A DNA stretch of 64,000 nucleotides from an uncultured Paracoccaceae bacterium (GTDB lineage Bacteria > Pseudomonadota > Alphaproteobacteria > Rhodobacterales > Rhodobacteraceae): contig CANMPD010000001.1 of NCBI GenBank assembly GCA_947499635.1, positions 372,001 through 436,000 of the forward strand. Reading direction: 5' to 3'. Every line of letters begins with the position of its first letter. Position 1 is the stretch's first letter. The notes beneath the pieces were generated by a model. It had not been told where the DNA came from. It searched no databases and was given only the letters and a program-made list of their open reading frames with translations. A program made the position numbers and the translations under genes. Shown here one piece after another: positions 38,829-48,442 of the stretch.

Positions 38829-38891
38829 TTACACATAATCATCATTTTCCGCTAGACGTCCTGCCCTCACAGACTTATACCGCCCTCACAT

Positions 38892-38966
38892 TCCGGCGTA
38901 GCTCAGCGGTAGAGCAGTTGACTGTTAATCAATTGGTCGTAGGTTCGATCCCTACCGCCGGAGCCA
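38892..38966 (+). tRNA. tRNA-Asn (anticodon GTT)
   Basis: TCCGGCG pairs with CGCCGGA at the 3' side, then discriminator G and encoded CCA (38964-38966). The anticodon stem-loop is TTGACTGTTAATCAA, giving GTT. T-arm: TAGGTTCGATCCCTA. 75 bases with CCA. An accessory stretch follows, and tRNA-Asn is a frequent integration site. Confidence 0.96.
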
Positions 38967-39116
38967 AATTTCCTCGATTTCATTTGGAAAATTGGCAAAG
39001 TACAAAACTTATCAACAATCTAAACACAGTTCTTTTCCGCCCTTTGGATTTGCGACAGACTGGAACCAATCGCGCATTCGTGAGCGCCTTGTTTGCTTTG
39101 ACATCGACCCCACCGC

Positions 39117-39678
39117 ATGGTGATCGAAAATCGCTTGGAAAAGAATGACAATTGTATCGCTCTACTGAAAAGAAAAATTAGCCCGCATAGCAAAAAGTAT
39201 CAGTCCGGTTTCTAAACCGAAACGATGGTCGGAACACGCTGTTTGCACAGTCGAGCGAGACGTGATGATTGGCTTTTTCATCATTCGTAGAATGATTGAG
39301 CTCAAAAGAGTTTCATCATCTATAGCAGATATGAAGTTTGACGTGTTTAGCGCACCCGCAACAAAAAACATCACAAAACGAAACTTTTTAGAACTTGAGG
39401 AAAACTATGACTGGAGCGCTGAAAAAGCAGAACGAAAACCTGCCAGTTATTTAAGCAACCAGTGTATTCACGCATACCTTAGTTTTGTTACCCGTGGTCT
39501 CGACCGCAATTGGTCGGACCTAATGGTTGTTTCAGACTTTGATAAAAATGAGGAGATTTGGCGAATTCCATTTTCGGCAATTATTGAAATTTTTGAAAAA
39601 GCATCGAATGACTGGCCGCATACGGTCTACGTGAAGTATAATCCGAAGCGAAACGACTACGACATTTCAACAAACTAA
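39117..39678 (+). pseudogene. Low-GC accessory gene, one-base frameshift
   Basis: Two adjacent reading frames appear to be one gene. The first starts at ATG 39117 (MVIENRLEKNDNCIALLKR) and stops at TAA 39213. The second is open from 39169 to 39678 and encodes KPKRWSEHAVCTVERDVMIG (from 39214) and onward. Removing T 39213 joins ..SGF to KPKRW.. in one frame, giving about 186 residues. The C-terminal part (about 138 residues, ending PKRNDYDISTN) resembles small hypothetical proteins of mobile or accessory regions, none with known function. Lower GC than its neighbours. Either a true frameshift or a sequence error. Confidence 0.55.
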
Positions 39679-39996
39679 AAATAGACCATCGAAGCATCGC
39701 TGCAACGGAGGTCAGTTGACCCCAATTTGGTCCTTGGGATTTCAGAAACAGTTTTCGGGTATGCCCATAATCAAGCGGTTGGCGTCAGCCTCTTGGCACA
39801 GGCTTTGCCCTTGGGCGACAACATCCTGGTCATGCCTGCGACGAAAACGGAGATGCACAGACGACACCGCCCGCAATACTTGGTCTGAGGGTCATGCACG
39901 AACGGGGAGATTACACCGTATTGGTTAAATTACGTTATCAATGGTCACACGCTTCACAACGCGGAGGCATCAGCTAATTGGTAATCAATAGGTTCT
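39679..39996. other. Intergenic accessory stretch with a gene-like remnant
   Basis: About 320 bases between the frameshifted gene and the fused ATPase. A frame open from 39685 to the TGA at 39886 encodes 67 residues with protein-like composition (LGISETVFGYAHNQAVGVSL, then LLAQALPLGDNILVMPATKT) but has no start codon and matches nothing I recognise; the frame continues after the stop to 39980. It looks like the remains of a gene. No att-like repeat of tRNA-Asn was found. Confidence 0.4.
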
Positions 39997-41775
39997 TCAA
40001 ATAGCCACCAGATGCCCTTCGTCTATCGAGCAATATTTTAGACGTTTGGGAGTTTGACCTTTCGCCATAATCGGGCTTCGTAGATCATCTTCACTATCTT
40101 CGCGTGGCAGAAATACGCGATCTGGATCAGGGAATGGTGCCGCTGCAATGAGCCGCCGCGTATACTGATGTTGTGGGTTCCCAAACACTTGTGCGCTCGA
40201 GCCCGTCTCAACGATTTGACCCAAATACATGACAGCCACGCGATCAGCAAAATTCTCAACTACAGCCATGTCATGTGAAATGAACAAATAAGACATATTC
40301 AGCTCTGCCTTCAATTCTTGCAAAAGCTCCAACACAGTGGCTTGAACAGATACATCTAGTGCTGAGACACTTTCGTCGGCAATGATCAGTTTTGGGTTCA
40401 GTGCTAAAGCGCGCGCGATACATATGCGTTGGCGCTGTCCTCCCGAGAATTCATGAGGGTAGCGATCGAGCACCTCAGCGCCCAGACCAACCCGTTCAAA
40501 CAACTCAGCAGCACGATCTGTTCGGCTTTGCGGTGTCCCAATGTTGTGGATAACCAAAGGTTCTCTCACCAAATCACCCACCGTCATACGACCATTTAAC
40601 GCCGCCATAGGATCTTGGAAAACCATTTGCATGACGCGGGTGTTGGCTAATTGGGATGCACGATCGCGCAAAATTGGTTGGCCCTCAAATTTGATGATCC
40701 CCTTATGAGGAACAAGGCCCGTTAACGCACGAGCAACAGTGGACTTCCCACAACCACTTTCACCGACAACAGCAAAAGTCTCACCTGAGAAAATGTCGAA
40801 ATTGATCTTTTCAACTGCATGTACCCGTGCTTGCACCCTGTCGAGGATACCACCACGTAGATCATAAGTGACTTGCAAATCCCTGACTGAGATCAAGGGC
40901 TGCATAGATGTATCCACCGTACTTTGTCGCCCTTTCCCCATTCGCGGTACGCTTGACAATAGTTTCCGTGTGTAAGGCATCTGCGGCGCGGCGAACAATG
41001 TACGCACGTCCGCTTCCTCAACTAATTGACCTTTTTGCATAATAAGGACCCGGTCAGCCATTTCGGCGACAACCCCCATGTCATGGGTGATAAGGATCAA
41101 GGCCATGCCCATTTCAGTAGTCAGTATGCGTAGCAGATCTAAAACCTCGCGTTGAACCGTCACATCCAGCGCTGTCGTGGGCTCATCAGCGATCATCACA
41201 TCGGGGCGCAGCGCGATGGCCATCGCAATGACAACACGTTGACGCATGCCGCCCGACAATTCATGCGGAAATTGTTTGAGTCTACGCTCAGGCTCAGTCA
41301 AACGGACAGCCTTCAGAGCCTCTAAGGCTCGGATGCGCGCGGCGCGACCTGACATCGGCTCGTGCGCACGTATAGCTTCAGTCAACTGATCCCCAATGCG
41401 CATCACAGGGTTCAGTGCCGTCATTGGTTCTTGGAATATCATCGCGATGCGATCACCGCGCAGGCGCTGCATCTTGCTCTCTGGGAGCTTTGTTAGATCG
41501 AAGTCATCGAATATAATCTGGCCACCAGCGACATGCACTGCGGGCGGTGGAAGCAGACCCATAATCGCCAACGACGTGAGCGATTTCCCTGATCCGCTTT
41601 CGCCAGCAATTGCCAATGTCTCGCCCCGCTTCAGATCGAAATTGAGGCTTTGAACGAGTGGCAAAATACCTGCTTCGGTACGTACCGAAATATCAAGCTG
41701 CCGCACAGATAGGACCGTGGGGTGTTCATCGGTGACCACTGAGGTCACCGAATTTGTTTTAGCACGCATACTCAT
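39997..41775 (-). CDS. Opp/Dpp-type ABC transporter, fused double ATP-binding protein
   Basis: A 592-residue protein with two complete ATPase domains, equal to DppD fused to DppF. Domain 1 (about 22-280): Walker A AGESGSGKSL, Q-loop MIFQEPMTALNP, signature HELSGGMRQRV, Walker B VMIADEPTTALDV. Domain 2 (about 300-570): Walker A GESGCGKSTV, MVFQDPMAALNG, FSGGQRQRI, IADESVSALDV. The second domain ends with the oligopeptide_HPY-like tail. It overlaps the formamidase gene start by four bases and is the last gene of the amide operon. It energises import through the two permeases. Confidence 0.93.
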   Translation of the reverse strand: MSMRAKTNSVTSVVTDEHPTVLSVRQLDISVRTEAGILPLVQSLNFDLKRGETLAIAGESGSGKSLTSLAIMGLLPPPAVHVAGGQIIFDDFDLTKLPESKMQRLRGDRIAMIFQEPMTALNPVMRIGDQLTEAIRAHEPMSGRAARIRALEALKAVRLTEPERRLKQFPHELSGGMRQRVVIAMAIALRPDVMIADEPTTALDVTVQREVLDLLRILTTEMGMALILITHDMGVVAEMADRVLIMQKGQLVEEADVRTLFAAPQMPYTRKLLSSVPRMGKGRQSTVDTSMQPLISVRDLQVTYDLRGGILDRVQARVHAVEKINFDIFSGETFAVVGESGCGKSTVARALTGLVPHKGIIKFEGQPILRDRASQLANTRVMQMVFQDPMAALNGRMTVGDLVREPLVIHNIGTPQSRTDRAAELFERVGLGAEVLDRYPHEFSGGQRQRICIARALALNPKLIIADESVSALDVSVQATVLELLQELKAELNMSYLFISHDMAVVENFADRVAVMYLGQIVETGSSAQVFGNPQHQYTRRLIAAAPFPDPDRVFLPREDSEDDLRSPIMAKGQTPKRLKYCSIDEGHLVAI

Positions 41776-42719
41776 TCAAACACGAAGCGCGGGAAGTAGA
41801 AGGAGACAATCCAGTTTGGCATATCAACAATCTCTGAAATGCGCAGATCGCCACAAGTGGACACCAGCATGTAAGCGTCAACAGCGGACAACCCTTGGGT
41901 TTTGCACAGCAACTCAACCATCTGACTAACGGCTTCCTGCGCGCCCGTCATCAAGTCGGGACCGACGCCTGTTGTGACCTCGTATCCTTTTGCATCCAAA
42001 TGATTAGTGACTGGACCCGGTGTGGTGAAACGCGGCATTTTCAGCTGCGCATCCTTGATCAAATCAAGCGTTACTGTGGCATCCATCGGGCTTTCGATTG
42101 CGGTGCCACAGACCTCACCATCGCCTTGCGCGGCATGCGTGTCGCCGATTGAGAACAACGCGCCCGCAACTTCAACGGGCAAGTATAGCGTGGTTCCTGC
42201 TGCTAGATCGCGAATATCGAGGTTTCCGCCCACACGACGTGGCGGCACAACCGAATGCAGACCGGGCTCAGCCAAAGCACAGCCCATGGTTCCTGCAAAA
42301 GGCTTGAGCGGGACGCGCCCGTTCTTGCCAAACAACGCAGGTTCCAACGTGTCAGGATCGTACTTCCAGATCGTCAGCGCCGGATCTTCGAATTGATCGG
42401 CCAGCAGCCCGAAGCCCGGGATATTGGCAGTCCAGCCAAAGCCAGACGGAGCAAAACCCTCAATCGTGATTTTCAACGCATCACCCGGTTCTGCCCCATC
42501 CACATAGACGGGACCAGACACAGGGTTGATCTTACCAAAATCCATCGCCGCAACATCAGCAACTGTACTGTCAGCCGTGAGTTGACCAGCAGAGCTGTCA
42601 TGGCATTTGAATTCGATTGTGTCACCCGGTGCGACCGTGATGGCCGGGACAAACGAGTTGTCCCAGCCAAAATGATGGTTTGCGCCGTGAATCGTGTAGT
42701 CAGGACATTTATTGCACAT
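41772..42719 (-). CDS. Acetamidase/formamidase family protein
   Basis: A 315-residue hydrolase of the FmdA/AmdA family, which splits formamide or short amides into acid and ammonia. Family marks: YTIHGANHHFGWDNSFVPAI (N-terminal), KINPVSGPVYVDGAEPGDAL (about 63-82), GTMGCALAEPGLHSVVPPR, and GDTHAAQGDGEVCGTAIES (about 185-203). No signal peptide: cytosolic. Overlaps the end of the binding-protein gene by 11 bases and the fused ATPase gene by four. Its position inside a transport and ANTAR operon suggests a specific imported amide as substrate; which one is unknown. Confidence 0.9.
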   Translation of the reverse strand: MCNKCPDYTIHGANHHFGWDNSFVPAITVAPGDTIEFKCHDSSAGQLTADSTVADVAAMDFGKINPVSGPVYVDGAEPGDALKITIEGFAPSGFGWTANIPGFGLLADQFEDPALTIWKYDPDTLEPALFGKNGRVPLKPFAGTMGCALAEPGLHSVVPPRRVGGNLDIRDLAAGTTLYLPVEVAGALFSIGDTHAAQGDGEVCGTAIESPMDATVTLDLIKDAQLKMPRFTTPGPVTNHLDAKGYEVTTGVGPDLMTGAQEAVSQMVELLCKTQGLSAVDAYMLVSTCGDLRISEIVDMPNWIVSFYFPRFVFE

Positions 42720-44349
42720 CGTTTACATACACATAGTCGTAGTTAACAGGAATCGAGACCGGATCGACATAAAGCTTGTCATCGCCGCCCATACGCTCGG
42801 ATTTCATGGTGTAGCGCTGCTCATTGAACACTGGCACCCAAGGCGCGTCTTCCATGATTTTCATATAGATATCTGACCACATTTTCAGGCGGTCATCTAC
42901 TTTTGAAGGGTCTGTCATGCTATCGGCTTCAATCGCCATCGCATCCGCATCAGCATTGCAATACCATGACCAATTCCACCCTCCTTGTACTGCCCCATCA
43001 CAGCCTAAGATCGGACCATAAAAGTTTGACGCATCCGGGAAATCTGCGATCCATGCCATGCCGCCAGACCAGATCATTGGCGCTTGATCCGCCTCACCAC
43101 CTGCCGCAATCACGCTAGCCTGTGCAAGGGATTGGATAGATGCCTTGATCCCGATCTTGGATAAATCCTGTTGGATTGCTTGAGCGATACGTGGGTTTGG
43201 ATCTGTATTCATCACAAACAGTTCGGTTTCAAAACCATCCGCAAAACCAGCGTCAGCCAACAACGACTTGGCCGCGTCAGGATCATAGGCATAGCCAGCG
43301 TACCCCTCAGTATAACCCGGCATGGAGGGTGGCAACGGCTGCGTAGCTGGTACAGCACGGCCATTGATTACTTGGGTAATCCGCTCTTTGTTGATCGCCA
43401 TGTTGACAGCTTTTCGCACATCTACATTGTCGAATGGAGGCATTTTTACGTTCAATGTGATGTAACCCGTATGCAGCTGACCACCTTCGATCACGCGTGC
43501 TGCTTGATCAGGGTCGCCCATCACTTCCTGAAATTTGGCAGGGGGAATGCCATCACCGGGAACATCCACTTCACCATTCTGGAGACGCAGCAAAGCGACG
43601 ATAGGCTCCTGCCCCACTTCGAACGTCACACTATCCAAATATGGCAGACCATCACGCCAATAATCTTCGTTCTTGGCGAAGACCAGTTTTTGACCGATTG
43701 TCCAATCTGAAAGTTTGAATGCCCCTGTACCCATTGCTGTCTTACCAAAGTCTGCACCAGCAGCCTCAACCGCTTCTTTTGCGACAACCGAGGCAAAGTT
43801 CAGCCCCATCACGTGTAGGAAGGTCGCGTCGGGGCGAGAAAGCGTAATTTCAACGGTTTGGTCATTCAAGACTTTGACCCCTGAAAGACCTTTCACCTCA
43901 CCCGAAGACACCGCGTCATATCCCGCGATGGAGCCAAAGAAGCCTGCACCGGGGCTTTGTGTTTTTGGATCAGTCACACGGTCCAGCGAGTATTTAACAT
44001 CCTCTGCCGTCATCAAGCGACCATTGTGGAACTTCACACCTTCGCGCAGTTTGAAGGTAAACACCATGCCATCATCTGAAATATCATAACTTTCGGCGAG
44101 CCCCGCGCGCAGCTCGGTTGTGCCAGGTTCATAATCCATCAGACCGTCATAGAGCGATTTGATCATGGACCAATTTTGCCAGTCATAGCCGATCGCAGGA
44201 TCCAAGGTTGCGACGTCGTCTTTGTACGTTACAGTGATATTACCACCAGACTTTGCATTCGGGTCAAGCGTAGATTGGCTTTCTGCAGCCGCCAACTGTG
44301 GCAGGCCGAGAACAACTACGAGAGCCGAGGTTGTAAGCAGTTTCTTCAT
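42709..44349 (-). CDS. ABC transporter periplasmic binding protein, family 5 (Opp/Dpp type)
   Basis: A 546-residue protein with a signal peptide (cleavage probably after LAAA, residues 19-22) and the family-5 signature in YDISDDGMVFTFKLREGVKFHNG. Other marks: TLDPAIGYDWQNW, NEDYWRDGLPYLDSV and DVRKAVNMAINKERI. The family binds peptides, nickel, sugars or small amides. It precedes the formamidase gene. Likely delivers the amide to the two permeases; the ligand is not visible from the sequence. Confidence 0.92.
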   Translation of the reverse strand: MKKLLTTSALVVVLGLPQLAAAESQSTLDPNAKSGGNITVTYKDDVATLDPAIGYDWQNWSMIKSLYDGLMDYEPGTTELRAGLAESYDISDDGMVFTFKLREGVKFHNGRLMTAEDVKYSLDRVTDPKTQSPGAGFFGSIAGYDAVSSGEVKGLSGVKVLNDQTVEITLSRPDATFLHVMGLNFASVVAKEAVEAAGADFGKTAMGTGAFKLSDWTIGQKLVFAKNEDYWRDGLPYLDSVTFEVGQEPIVALLRLQNGEVDVPGDGIPPAKFQEVMGDPDQAARVIEGGQLHTGYITLNVKMPPFDNVDVRKAVNMAINKERITQVINGRAVPATQPLPPSMPGYTEGYAGYAYDPDAAKSLLADAGFADGFETELFVMNTDPNPRIAQAIQQDLSKIGIKASIQSLAQASVIAAGGEADQAPMIWSGGMAWIADFPDASNFYGPILGCDGAVQGGWNWSWYCNADADAMAIEADSMTDPSKVDDRLKMWSDIYMKIMEDAPWVPVFNEQRYTMKSERMGGDDKLYVDPVSIPVNYDYVYVNDVQ

Positions 44350-44378
44350 TCCGATTTACTCCTGTTGGGTTGGTATTT

Positions 44379-45299
44379 TTAGCGGACCTTGATCCGCGGG
44401 TCGGCAAACAAAGACGCAATATCCGCGACCAGATTTCCAATGACGATGGCGCAGGCTGAAACCAGCGTGACGCCCATAATGATCGGGATGTCCACGCGTT
44501 GAATGGCTTGCCACGCGAGCTGACCAATACCGGGCCAGCCAAAGACAGATTCCACAACGACGATCCCTCCCATGAAGATGCCAACATCGATCCCGATCAT
44601 CGCAATAATCGGCAAGACCGCGTTAGGCAGCGCGTGTCGCATGAGGACACGCATACGACCCAGCCCTTTGGCCCGCGCGGTACGGATAAAATCCTGCCGA
44701 AGCACATCAATCATCGAAGAACGCATCATCCGGCTGTACCAGCCTGATCCGAGTATCCCCAAAGTTATGGATGGCAAGACCATATGCGCAAAGGTTCCAT
44801 AACCACCAATCGGGAACCAACGCAGCTGTACGGCAAAAACATAAAGCATCAGGAGGCCGACAACGAATTGCGGCGCTGACACACCGATAAAGCTAGCCAT
44901 CATGAGACTGTTATCTGTAACCGTCCCACGGCGCAGCGCAGCCACCACACCCATTGTGATGCCCAAAACCAACTCGCAGACAATTGCTCCTAACATCAGA
45001 AGTAACGACGCTGGCAAACGTGAGGCGATCAACGTGCTGACTTCAGTCTTTTGCAAGTATGAGCGCCCAAGATCCCCTTGAACAAGATTTCCGAAATATC
45101 GCGCATACTGAACTATGAACGGCTTATCGAGACCAAGCTGGGCTCGAATATTCGCGACAGTCTCCGCCGTGGCCGAACGGCCAGCGATTTGGCGCACAGG
45201 GTCCGCAGGAAGCAAATAAAGCAACGCGAATGTGATGAACGAAACCCCCAGCAGAATGAACACAGACTGGATTAGACGTTTTACGACAAAAGCAAACAT
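44379..45299 (-). CDS. ABC transporter permease, DppB/OppB type
   Basis: A 306-residue inner-membrane protein with six helices; the N-terminus MFAFVVKRLIQSVFILLGVS is the classic OppB beginning. The EAA-type coupling motif is in ARAKGLGRMRVLMRHALPNA (about residues 195-214), the contact with the ATPase. One base overlaps the other permease gene, so translation is coupled. Spaced 29 bases from the binding-protein gene. Confidence 0.92.
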   Translation of the reverse strand: MFAFVVKRLIQSVFILLGVSFITFALLYLLPADPVRQIAGRSATAETVANIRAQLGLDKPFIVQYARYFGNLVQGDLGRSYLQKTEVSTLIASRLPASLLLMLGAIVCELVLGITMGVVAALRRGTVTDNSLMMASFIGVSAPQFVVGLLMLYVFAVQLRWFPIGGYGTFAHMVLPSITLGILGSGWYSRMMRSSMIDVLRQDFIRTARAKGLGRMRVLMRHALPNAVLPIIAMIGIDVGIFMGGIVVVESVFGWPGIGQLAWQAIQRVDIPIIMGVTLVSACAIVIGNLVADIASLFADPRIKVR

Positions 45300-46183
45300 T
45301 ACCCGCGCCCCCGTTGCGTGGGATCAAGCACATCTCGTAGAGCATCCCCCACAAGATTGAACGCCAGAGCCAGTGTGACAATCGCCACCCCGGGAAAGAA
45401 CACCAACCAAGGAGCCGCTTGGAAATAGGTCTGATTTTCGAAGATGATGTTACCCCAGCTCGGCGTCGGAGGCTGAACTCCTACCCCCAAAAAGCTGAGT
45501 GTTGCTTCAAGTAGTACGGTGGTTGAAATCCCCAGCGTGCCCCAAACGATGATTGTCGGTGTGAGATGCGGAAGGATATGGCGGAACAAAATGCGGATAT
45601 TACTCGCACCTAAAGTACGTTCTGCAGCGATGAATTCACGCTCTGACAAACTGGCGGTCTCAGCGTATAGGACGCGCGCCGTTTGCACCCAGTTCACGGT
45701 CGCGATTACCAACGCCACAATCCAGAGTGAAGGCTGGAAAATCGCAGCTAAACAAATCGCCAAGAGCAAGGCCGGAAAAGCCATCATCAAATCGGTGAAG
45801 CGCATCAAGACACTGCCCCAAAAACCGCCAAAATATCCGGCAGTAACGCCTACAAAGGTACCAATGATAAGCGCTACGCCATTGGCGACCAAACCAATGA
45901 TCAGAGATGTGCGCGCGCCGTATAGAATGCGCGTCAACAAATCACGGCCCAACAGGTCCGTCCCTAACGCAAATTGCGCTCCAGGCGCCATAGGCGCACC
46001 CTGCAGCGTCAGCCCATCAAACATTTGATCGTTCGGTCCATAAGGTGTCAGGTAAGGCGCGCAGATTGCGCCAAACAACGTAAGAAAAATCAGCGTCATC
46101 CCGAACAAGGCAAGTTTGCGTTTCTTCAGACGTTGCCAAACTGACAGCGGCAACAATACAGGAGCGGTTTCAACGAATGCCAC
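45299..46183 (-). CDS. ABC transporter permease, DppC/OppC type
   Basis: A 294-residue inner-membrane protein. N-terminus RLKKRKLALFGMTLIFLTLF then GTDLLGRDLLTRILYGARTS (about residues 74-93), a DppC hallmark, and the EAA motif in ERTLGASNIRILFRHILPHL (about 188-207). Overlaps the ANTAR gene by 14 bases. Forms the channel with the DppB-type permease. Confidence 0.92.
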   Translation of the reverse strand: MAFVETAPVLLPLSVWQRLKKRKLALFGMTLIFLTLFGAICAPYLTPYGPNDQMFDGLTLQGAPMAPGAQFALGTDLLGRDLLTRILYGARTSLIIGLVANGVALIIGTFVGVTAGYFGGFWGSVLMRFTDLMMAFPALLLAICLAAIFQPSLWIVALVIATVNWVQTARVLYAETASLSEREFIAAERTLGASNIRILFRHILPHLTPTIIVWGTLGISTTVLLEATLSFLGVGVQPPTPSWGNIIFENQTYFQAAPWLVFFPGVAIVTLALAFNLVGDALRDVLDPTQRGRG

Positions 46184-46769
46184 GGTTTTCTCTTGTCGCC
46201 TCTTTGTGTTTCACAATCTGCACTGCAGCATCTTCCATCGTCATGTTCCAAGCCATCGCAAGTTGACGTAAATCATCGTATGCCGTCTCTTCTGAGCCTT
46301 TCCTTTTCGCCAGAAGTGATACGGCCTGCACGATAGTTTGGCGCGCAGACAATCGGTCCCGCAGGGCATCATTTTCTGCCAACAATGCCTTCCTACGCTC
46401 AAAAGATTGCCGCGCCATCAGAAGGGATGCAAACACGCCGCTGGCGGCCAGAGGTTTGACCAGCAGTGCGTCCGCTCCGGTTTTGGAGGCCCATTCAATT
46501 CGTCCCGGTGCTTCTGACCCGACAAGGGCAATCATCGGCATAGGCGGTTGACCGGCAGGCCACGGGAACTGTTCATCATGGCCTGCATCTGTGTCATAAA
46601 GGATAAAATCAGCAGCGATTGCAGAGGTAGGCAACTGTGGCCAAGCAACCTCAACGTCCAAACCGATCGCACGCAACTGACGCAACAGGACAGGCAAACG
46701 GTCATGCCCGGGATGCAAGACAATTGCCCGCGCGCCCTCCAATCCTGCGATGTCGATCCGCTTGTTCAT
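46170..46769 (-). CDS. AmiR-like ANTAR-domain RNA-binding antiterminator
   Basis: A 199-residue regulator. The N-terminal part (about 1-115) has a receiver-like fold without the full phosphoacceptor set, as in AmiR. A coiled coil follows (FERRKALLAENDALRDRL, about 125-142), then the C-terminal ANTAR domain (about 143-195) with RQTIVQAVSLLAKRKGSEET and AYDDLRQLAMAWNMTMEDAA. ANTAR proteins bind tandem hairpins in nascent RNA and stop termination. It overlaps the amiC-like gene by four bases. In Pseudomonas the AmiC sensor holds AmiR inactive until an amide binds. Confidence 0.9.
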   Translation of the reverse strand: MNKRIDIAGLEGARAIVLHPGHDRLPVLLRQLRAIGLDVEVAWPQLPTSAIAADFILYDTDAGHDEQFPWPAGQPPMPMIALVGSEAPGRIEWASKTGADALLVKPLAASGVFASLLMARQSFERRKALLAENDALRDRLSARQTIVQAVSLLAKRKGSEETAYDDLRQLAMAWNMTMEDAAVQIVKHKEATRENRGIR

Positions 46770-47845
46770 GCCTGCACCACAGACAACGTTGGACTATCAA
46801 ATTGCGGGTGGCGCGAAGGCCGTGTGAGATACGGATCAGGTGCGATATCTGACCAACTATGCAGAATTTCAAACACACCATTGCGGACCTGAGCAATGTG
46901 CACATCAAGCGTTTTATGTTGAGTGGCGGGATCAATACCGTAACGGTCACCATGCTCTGCCAAATAGCGATCAAAAGAGCCGCTGACTCCTTGGGCAAGC
47001 ACCGAAGCCAAGGTTAGAACTGACTGATAGGCAGTACACTCCAAGGAGGATCCCCGACCATCAGCGCTTGGCGTTTCACAAAAAGACGGGCCGACAGATA
47101 TTAGCCCTTCTGCTGCATCACCAAGAACTGGCAATTCTGCCTCGGTCAGATTGCATGATAACAATGGGCAATTTTCCGGGGCAAAATGTGGGTCGCGGCG
47201 CCCTAAATCAGCATAGGCCTTGATGAATGCATAAGAGGATGCGCCCACCAGAGAATTAAGAATGAACTTTGGTCGGCTCCGTTCAATGTCGTTGATCAAG
47301 CCGTCAACAGATGTGTCTCTCAGCGGAAGGTAGCGTTCACCCAGCACCGCACCTCCCGACGCTTCGAGGCGTGTACGCATCACCCTGCAGGTCTCCCAAC
47401 CCCAGATATAATTGGAGCCAACCAGATAGGCCTCCATACCGAAGTGGCGCATAGCCCAGCTCAAGATGGGTAAGATGTTCTGATTTGTAGCGGCGTGGGA
47501 ATAAACAACACGCGCAGATGTCTCGAACCCCTCGTACGGTACGTTGTACCACAACGTCGCTTGAGCGCGATCGAGTTCGGGAATGACTTCCTTTCTGCTT
47601 GACGACGTAACACACCCAACCACATGTCTGGCCTTTGATGAGTTCAGAATATCCGCACACATTGGGGCATAGTTTATAAGGTCACCTGCGGGATCGCGCA
47701 CAATAGGATTGAAGGAAACCGGGAGTGCACTGTCTGAATTCACAGCCTCGATTGCAGACATTGCCCCCACGAATAAAGGTTCAGACAATAGCTGATAGGT
47801 CCCCGAACGAGAGTACAAAACACCAATATCAAAGTTCTCGAACAT
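46766..47845 (-). CDS. AmiC-like cytosolic ligand-binding regulator (Peripla_BP_6 fold)
   Basis: A 359-residue protein with the type-I periplasmic-binding fold of AmiC and urea/amide sensors: start MFENFDIGVLYSRSGTYQLL, then VGCVTSSSRKEVIPELDRAQ, LWYNVPYEGFETSARVVYSH and EAYLVGSNYIWGWE. It has no signal peptide, so it acts in the cytosol as AmiC does. ATG 47845 has GGGGAATTC upstream. It is the first gene of the operon and lies directly after the leader terminator. Predicted to bind the inducing amide and release the ANTAR protein. Confidence 0.9.
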   Translation of the reverse strand: MFENFDIGVLYSRSGTYQLLSEPLFVGAMSAIEAVNSDSALPVSFNPIVRDPAGDLINYAPMCADILNSSKARHVVGCVTSSSRKEVIPELDRAQATLWYNVPYEGFETSARVVYSHAATNQNILPILSWAMRHFGMEAYLVGSNYIWGWETCRVMRTRLEASGGAVLGERYLPLRDTSVDGLINDIERSRPKFILNSLVGASSYAFIKAYADLGRRDPHFAPENCPLLSCNLTEAELPVLGDAAEGLISVGPSFCETPSADGRGSSLECTAYQSVLTLASVLAQGVSGSFDRYLAEHGDRYGIDPATQHKTLDVHIAQVRNGVFEILHSWSDIAPDPYLTRPSRHPQFDSPTLSVVQA

Positions 47846-47856
47846 GAATTCCCCAT

Positions 47857-47901
47857 AAAAAAAGCCCCGACACAGCAACTCAATGTTGCTCTTGTCGAGG
47901 C
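47857..47901 (-). terminator. Leader terminator of the amide operon
   Basis: On the minus strand, GCCTCGACA pairs with TGTCGGGGC (one G-U), with an inner AGCAAC/GTTGCT stem and ATTGA loop, followed by seven T (A 47857-47863). It ends about 12 bases before the amiC-like ATG. Since it sits between promoter and first gene, it acts as an attenuator, not as an operon end. Confidence 0.85.
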
Positions 47902-47927
47902 CCGAATGCCTGTTTGACGACTGTCAA
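47894..47927 (-). promoter_or_regulatory. Candidate antiterminator / ANTAR-binding RNA hairpins
   Basis: Two short hairpins precede the terminator on the minus strand. HP1 is TTGACAGTCGTCAA (47914-47927), drawn with a six-base or four-base loop. HP2 is AGGC-ATTCGG-GCCT (47898-47911), with a six-base loop starting with A. HP2, and an alternative helix of GTCG (47918-47921) with CGAC (47894-47897), use the GCCTCGAC segment that is the 5' arm of the terminator. Formation of either would block termination. Tandem hairpins with six-base loops are the known ANTAR target; the conserved loop G is not clearly at position 4 here. Confidence 0.55.
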
Positions 47928-48442
47928 TACGTGATCTGATTTAAGAACACTTCACAAGTCTGAGTGAAAGTGTGATCTTTCGCAATTTTTATTTTAAATT
48001 TCCCGGGAAAAGGTTAAGCGACACGTTAAAATGCCCAATACTTAGGCTAACCCCAGAGACTTTAGAAACCGTACAAATACGAACCTGATCGCCATACTGT
48101 GTTAGGATCTTACCCCACCAAAAATCAAATTCCCAAAGGTCGCGACCCAGATCCCTATCACAGACCTTAATCGCCATGCGCACGAAAATCGGCGCGTATT
48201 TGGAAACGATAGCATCGTTTTGTCTCCGCACTCGAACGTTCTAGCTATGAACTCCGTGCCTCTTCTTCATAGTATGAAATACACTACGGCCTGCCTTATG
48301 GGTCACGGCTTTCTTACATTATTTAGAAATACCGAACGGAGCCAAACAGACTGGCGTTAGATCATGCGCCTTGTCCAAACTTAATTTTGATAACACAATT
48401 TAATTTGCGCAACAGTACGGTAAAAACCATAATGCAATCTTC
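47928..48442. other. Intergenic between the amide operon and htpG
   Basis: About 515 bases, AT-rich, holding the promoter of the amide operon (minus strand, left) and the htpG 3' flank. A minus-strand ORF of 80 codons (47989-48231) lies here but shows no family likeness. No tRNA, no clear repeats. TTGACA at 47923-47928 on the minus strand overlaps HP1 and is not a convincing -35. Confidence 0.5.

Follow-up and report, generated by a model that had tools for sequence, protein, structure and literature searches.

A conserved seven-gene operon, probably for uptake and hydrolysis of L-amino-acid amides, behind a leader RNA that looks like an unusual variant of an ANTAR switch

The ami operon of Pseudomonas aeruginosa carries the sensor-antiterminator pair AmiC-AmiR, the amidase AmiE and AmiS. 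Operons of another described kind combine an FmdA_AmdA-family amidase with a family-5 (SBP_bac_5) solute-binding protein, and one such binding protein is represented by PDB entry 8UPI, titled 'Structure of a periplasmic peptide binding protein from Mesorhizobium sp. AP09 bound to aminoserine'. We take 8UPI to be MeAmi_SBP, an L-amino-acid-amide binder from FmdA_AmdA operons, and its aminoserine to be L-serinamide; Smith et al., in Biochemistry in 2024, reportedly picked MeAmi_SBP out of some 610 SBP_bac_5 proteins that belong to FmdA_AmdA operons. A 2026 paper describes a Klebsiella plasmid that carries amiC-amiR-amiE and four 'cluster 5' ATP-binding cassette (ABC) importer genes (PMC13209695). 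In Pseudomonas pseudoalcaligenes the neighbouring loci BN5_3235 and BN5_3236 encode an oligopeptide-binding protein and an acetamidase/formamidase, and BN5_3236 was upregulated by 3-cyanoalanine and by a cyanide-containing residue, relative to ammonium (PMC8567248). The importer class plus an amidase is therefore already known from these two reports. Here we analysed a 64,000-nucleotide window of an uncultured marine Paracoccaceae bacterium (assembly GCA_947499635.1, contig CANMPD010000001.1, positions 372,001 to 436,000), in which seven genes on the minus strand, amiC-amiR-dppC-dppB-dppA-fmdA-dppDF, stand behind a putative leader RNA.

The seven open reading frames occupy positions 39997-47845 and, in operon order, encode an AmiC-like ligand sensor (46766..47845; Peripla_BP_5 and a predicted model), an AmiR-like antiterminator (46170..46769; AmiR_N pseudo-receiver plus ANTAR), a DppC/OppC-type permease (45299..46183; BPD_transp_1 plus OppC_N), a DppB/OppB-type permease (44379..45299; BPD_transp_1 plus its N-terminal family), a family-5 solute-binding protein related to 8UPI and with a signal peptide by eye (42709..44349; SBP_bac_5), an FmdA_AmdA-family amidase of the short form with 315 amino acids (41772..42719; FmdA_AmdA) and a fused DppD-DppF double ATPase (39997..41775; ABC_tran in two stretches), all families being Pfam calls. 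The junctions between them measure -4, -14, -1, +29, -11 and -4 nucleotides, and from these overlaps and the leader we infer that the seven genes are cotranscribed. The original prediction, made from the sequence alone, had described seven overlapping or nearly touching minus-strand genes of these families, and every reading frame and Pfam call agreed with it. The start of amiC was corrected: the TTG start at 47878 given by the open reading frame finder falls inside the leader terminator, and the likely start is the ATG at 47845 directly after the terminator, so that the sequence between this ATG and 47943 is likely non-coding leader RNA.

The window operon has its AmiC/AmiR pair of sensor and antiterminator and its leader terminator in common with the P. 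aeruginosa ami operon but differs in amidase family and transporter, and its sensor genes come first, behind the leader. It is like the Klebsiella plasmid operon in uniting AmiC-AmiR with an amidase and an ABC importer and unlike it in that the plasmid operon has an AmiE-type amidase and four transporter genes, for which its authors propose acetamide (PMC13209695). As in the Mesorhizobium FmdA_AmdA/SBP_bac_5 operons, an 8UPI-like SBP_bac_5 protein stands beside an FmdA_AmdA amidase and Dpp-type ABC genes, and many Mesorhizobium loci have the same seven-gene order; the difference is that the window comes from a Roseobacter-group relative.

We propose that the operon is a self-regulated catabolic unit that senses, imports and hydrolyses L-amino-acid amides, a reading that we hold to be likely. 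An amide inside the cell would bind cytoplasmic AmiC, ligand-bound AmiC would let go of AmiR, and the freed AmiR would grip a hexaloop hairpin in the nascent leader. Because the 3' arm of the hairpin held by AmiR belongs to the 5' arm of the terminator, the terminator could not form, and RNA polymerase would go on to transcribe the seven genes. The Dpp-type importer would then take in amino-acid amides through the family-5 binding protein and the FmdA_AmdA amidase would cleave them to amino acid and ammonia, with nitrogen supply as the most likely purpose of this breakdown.

The imported substrate is suggested by the binding protein, which is 74% identical to its closest solved relative, 8UPI, and aligns to it over 522 residues without gaps. 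The predicted structure of the dppA product was poor (predicted local distance difference test score, pLDDT, 61.2), and its fold search was used for sequence identity and PDB titles only. In E. coli DppA, Asp408 holds the amino end of the peptide and Arg355 holds its carboxylate; the title of PDB entry 8z1z carries R383D and D436R, which, taken as precursor numbering, match this anchor pair. The amino anchor Asp408 was retained as D436 and was invariant in 19/19 aligned relatives, and the position of the carboxylate anchor Arg355 is a deletion in the window protein. The DppA signature of a dipeptide binder is thus only half present, and 8UPI, being collinear with the window protein in this region, shares the deletion. 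The best fit is a ligand that has a free amino group but no carboxylate, as an amino-acid amide does, and from the 74% identity and the two residues we infer that the window protein binds L-amino-acid amides. The larger or peptide-like amide that had been suggested for this importer is borne out to this extent by the match to the aminoserine-bound protein. Dpp-like permeases and ATPases and the retained aspartate would also suit an importer of ordinary or C-terminally amidated short peptides that the amidase then trims; however, deletion of the arginine speaks against ordinary dipeptides and the title of 8UPI, 74% identical, names one small molecule, aminoserine, as ligand, and we judge this explanation improbable.

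The amidase belongs to the FmdA_AmdA family, yet it scored 123 bits against the NCBIfam formamidase model NF045496, which has a cut-off of 500. With this score far below the cut-off we reject a formamidase proper, and the specific activity named in the original prediction is not supported; amino-acid amides are presumably the substrate. The predicted model of AmiC (pLDDT 90.6) had the periplasmic urea-binding protein 8tg1 as its top structural match, followed by P. aeruginosa AmiC entries 1qnl and 1pea, with butyramide or acetamide; by sequence the best PDB match was 1pea, with 8tg1 almost equal. No signal peptide was seen when the AmiC sequence was read, so the protein is probably cytoplasmic, and the locus thus has an AmiC-fold sensor lacking a signal peptide in tandem with a pseudo-receiver ANTAR protein. 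Use of the operon for short aliphatic amides such as formamide and acetamide, as the FmdA name and the P. aeruginosa paradigm would have it, draws on these AmiC model matches and on the AmiC, AmiR and FmdA_AmdA family memberships. We consider such a use unlikely, as the amidase falls far under the formamidase cut-off, the importer is Dpp-type with a binding protein matching the aminoserine-bound relative, and a peptide-class importer would seem needless for compounds so small.

A search of GTDB genomes with exact peptide patterns, which reach near relatives only, matched at least 586 FmdA relatives, and conservation of the gene order was assessed around the best 80 of them. The exact order amiC-amiR-dppC-dppB-dppA-fmdA-dppDF was present in 73/80 of these nearest loci, which excludes an arrangement unique to the window genome. 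The original prediction had proposed looking for the order in relatives and had joined an ANTAR regulator to an Opp/Dpp-type importer in one unit; the order recurs, and the joining is supported. Among the remaining seven loci, four (L038, L058, L090 and L111) lie on short contigs or at contig ends and three (L062, L083 and L106) are real departures. Record titles of the loci include Sulfitobacter, Jannaschia, Mesorhizobium, Aminobacter, Aureimonas, Thalassospira and others, and those nearest to the window are named Roseobacter and Sulfitobacter. A search with AmiR matched 32/198 genomes of the family at 1e-10, and next to the 15 close AmiR relatives besides the window's own (E up to 1.4e-56) the following gene was dppC in 14 and fmdA in 1. 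Across a phylum sample of 299 genomes, FmdA was found at E 1e-60 or better in 11, the window's own included, and 8 of the 10 others had the full unit plus a GGC-N6-GCC hairpin before amiC. L135, from this sample, has fmdA alone.

More distant loci showed how the parts are exchanged. L145, L146 and L147, with AmiC 33-40% identical, likewise have the full seven-gene order with their AmiC-AmiR pair at its head. L144 has amiC-amiR-fmdA, then dppDF-like pieces and a dppA/dppB/dppC set of lower similarity (25-40%), which we read as the same regulator and amidase with a replaced importer. Behind AmiC-AmiR in L148 (G140:C2:208000-222000) come a periplasmic protein of the Peripla_BP_6/5 type and a permease of branched-chain type (PF02653), and an fmdA relative at 31% lies downstream; this is the importer type that the original prediction had named for urea-type amide systems. 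The regulator pair is therefore combined with different importers. Two further arrangements were observed. L134 (G205:C10:95000-109500), from the phylum sample, has three dppA-like binding-protein genes in tandem within a single fmdA operon, which may give a broader substrate range, and an amiC/amiR match was absent from the 10 kb upstream piece examined. In the related operon of L149 (G007:C49:3000-18000) the fmdA, dppA and dppDF matches are broken into pieces in different frames, as a decayed operon copy or assembly errors would produce. A conserved extra enzyme beside the operon was looked for and dropped, as no flanking family occurred in more than 11/80 loci, the commonest, by eye, being an ABC ATPase (11/80). 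When seven neighbours of the operon in the window were searched in 112 loci (about 30 of them covering 3-4 kb), only htpG was found, in L084. The conserved unit therefore ends at the seven genes and sits at varied genomic places.

The leader RNA (47854..47943, minus strand) lies immediately upstream of amiC and was delimited with a covariance model and by pairing. It contains the hexaloop hairpin GGC-ATTCGG-GCC at 47899..47910 on the minus strand, with coordinates counted from the sequence, and an intrinsic terminator at 47857..47903 on the same strand, found by a stem search, in which an 11-pair outer stem (47862-47903) is followed by a T run to 47857. The hairpin's 3' arm and the last two bases of its loop form part of the terminator 5' arm. 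Covariance model R1 scored the leader at 43.6 bits in the window (E 7.4e-11), the window leader being among the model's 45 sequences. A total of 104 leaders, the window's included, were examined, and a GGC-N6-GCC hairpin was present within 120 nucleotides of amiC in 96/104 upstream regions, compared with 11.8 expected from first-order Markov controls; the 96 include two identical pairs and so comprise 94 distinct leaders. The 8/104 lacking the hairpin are L073 and seven distant relatives, and L073 shows GCC-AATCAG-GGC instead, which we interpret as a single compensatory change. A terminator stem of at least 6 pairs overlapped the 3' arm of the hairpin in 81/84 leaders compared with 225/1680 shuffled controls, in a set of non-identical, hairpin-bearing leaders that left out those with AmiC identity below 44% and L018, L092 and L106.

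The terminator was also evident as a conserved structure in an alignment of 45 leaders, hand-picked from 66 with a visible upstream stem favoured and with 3' ends trimmed by hand. RNAalifold called 13 terminator pairs, and 87.5% of the terminator cells were paired compared with 39-52% when the partner was slid. Cells changed on both sides numbered 85 against 13-50 for the slid partner, and the covariation score of 0.463 stood above the slid values (at most 0.168) and above all 500 shuffles, where the structure was derived from the same alignment that tested it and relatedness inflates the shuffle control. A terminator overlapping the hairpin, and so a putative attenuator, is well supported by these comparisons. 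The terminator might instead end upstream transcription, or AmiR might act on translation, for which the absence of the canonical G4 from the loop and ANTAR sites near ribosome-binding sites, put forward as an alternative by Ramesh 2012 (PMC3369931), could be cited. We regard this as rather unlikely, as the terminator stands immediately before amiC, overlaps the hairpin in 81/84 leaders and has the htpG stop codon more than 500 nucleotides upstream of it.

A search of the 3.6 Mb genome with the covariance model returned one strong site, this leader (E 4.2e-9; in the training set), with 150/771 first-look candidates scored, so that a weak site could be missed. A wider AmiR regulon was considered; among the scored candidates the next-best site (E 0.0115) lies inside a 728-codon open frame and was treated as chance. 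Upstream of the hexaloop hairpin an ANATA stretch recurs by eye, often followed by a CCGGC...GCCGG stem. By eye and uncounted, this upstream stem is present in many leaders with varying loop size and is not evident in several, and the recurring stretch is possibly the transcript start. Around the leader no sigma-70 promoter was conspicuous: the region holds 7 promoter-like sites, and shuffles give 8.8.

The hairpin loops were then compared with described ANTAR RNAs. In EutV, G4 of the loop is stacked on Tyr164 and contacted by Arg142, Lys149 and Glu160, Met172 serves as a plug, and the authors redefine the minimal ANTAR site as a single hexaloop (PMC8934654). The window group resembles the EutV/NasR dual-hexaloop RNAs in having a hexaloop with A1 and a stem overlapping the terminator and is unlike them in lacking a conserved G4, an evident second hexaloop and an AmiR with Lys149 (PMC8934654, PMC3369931). 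Loop position 1 was A in 93/96 leaders (91/94 distinct), a count in which our script preferred the hairpin with A1 at 4 loci with two matching hairpins; among leaders with a single candidate hairpin A1 was present in 89/92. Position 5 was a purine in 95/96 leaders (93/94 distinct), and its reading as a shifted ANTAR signal was rejected since this base pairs with a U after the terminator (columns 48-103). Of the loop signals, A1 is therefore the main one left unexplained by terminator pairing. As to the features of a dual-hexaloop site, the overlap of hexaloop and terminator and A1 are both found in these leaders and G4 is not.

AmiR itself was closest to the AmiR of 1qo0, then to the mycobacterial-type antiterminator 1s8n and to EutV 6wsh. 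RNA-contacting residues were tabulated over 89 relatives, the window's included, in EutV numbering (the structure chain numbering is EutV plus 2). Arg142, Tyr or Phe164 and Arg168 were each present in 89/89, Met172 in 88/89 and Glu or Asp at position 160 in 84/89. Position 149 was Val in 86/89 and Lys in none. The loss of G4 in the RNA and the loss of Lys149 in AmiR could fit together, which we offer as a lead; against the link, L019 and L021 have Val149 yet a G4 loop, and P. aeruginosa AmiR keeps Lys149 but has Gln142, His164 and Ser168 in place of Arg142, Tyr164 and Arg168.

Several observations weigh against the proposed sensing and antitermination. Pocket positions of P. aeruginosa AmiC differ in the alignment with the window protein, and with a urea-binding protein as the top structural match of the AmiC model the inducer might be a compound other than the one transported. 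The amiC-amiR pair is without a nearby match in some relatives (L083, and L134 with L142). Within the terminator, 9/13 pairs changed on both sides, little above the controls (shuffled mean 7.0, slid up to 8), and the three core pairs of the hairpin were invariant in the alignment, so that covariation neither supports nor contradicts them. G occupied loop position 4 in just 3/96 leaders (3/94 distinct), the window loop ATTCGG having C4, and a second tandem hexaloop was not evident by eye in the leaders. Lys143 was replaced by Gln in 81/89 AmiR relatives, and Asn173 and Arg177 were mostly replaced. RNA binding by AmiR is less sure because G4 is absent, a second hexaloop is not evident and backbone-contacting residues are changed. 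We suggest only tentatively that alphaproteobacterial AmiR proteins of amino-acid-amide operons might read a variant, possibly single-hexaloop ANTAR RNA by a second loop-recognition code, with A1 kept, G4 lost and Lys149 changed to Val.

Some features stand apart from the operon. The one other ANTAR protein of the genome, of 194 amino acids (L001; G000:C3, about 221000), lies beside an NMT1_2-family protein, and we take the two to be likely a nitrate pair of the NasS-NasT type. Between a tRNA gene (38892-38963) and the 3' end of the operon lies a plus-strand open reading frame of 138 amino acids (39262-39678) without a Pfam match, and the stretch 38829-39996 beside this operon end is AT-richer, with a GC content of 0.449 compared with 0.50 for the window.

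Together these data indicate that the operon is real, well conserved and of an already described kind, and that the RNA on/off switch before it looks like an unusual variant. The original prediction had hinted that the arrangement was undescribed, which is not supported, given the SBP_bac_5 proteins of FmdA_AmdA operons treated by Smith et al. and the amiC-amiR-amiE operon with an ABC importer (PMC13209695); for the leader RNA and the exact gene set we found no description in the literature searched, which left most subscription journals outside its reach. The variant loop code is the part most deserving of specialist attention, and the leaders, if the proposal is true, would form a large set of short RNAs for direct tests of the ANTAR loop code (A1, G4 and two loops). 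If true, it would also mean that many Alphaproteobacteria use amino-acid amides under ligand-controlled antitermination and, for marine nitrogen cycling, that amidated amino acids are a substrate that roseobacters may scavenge.

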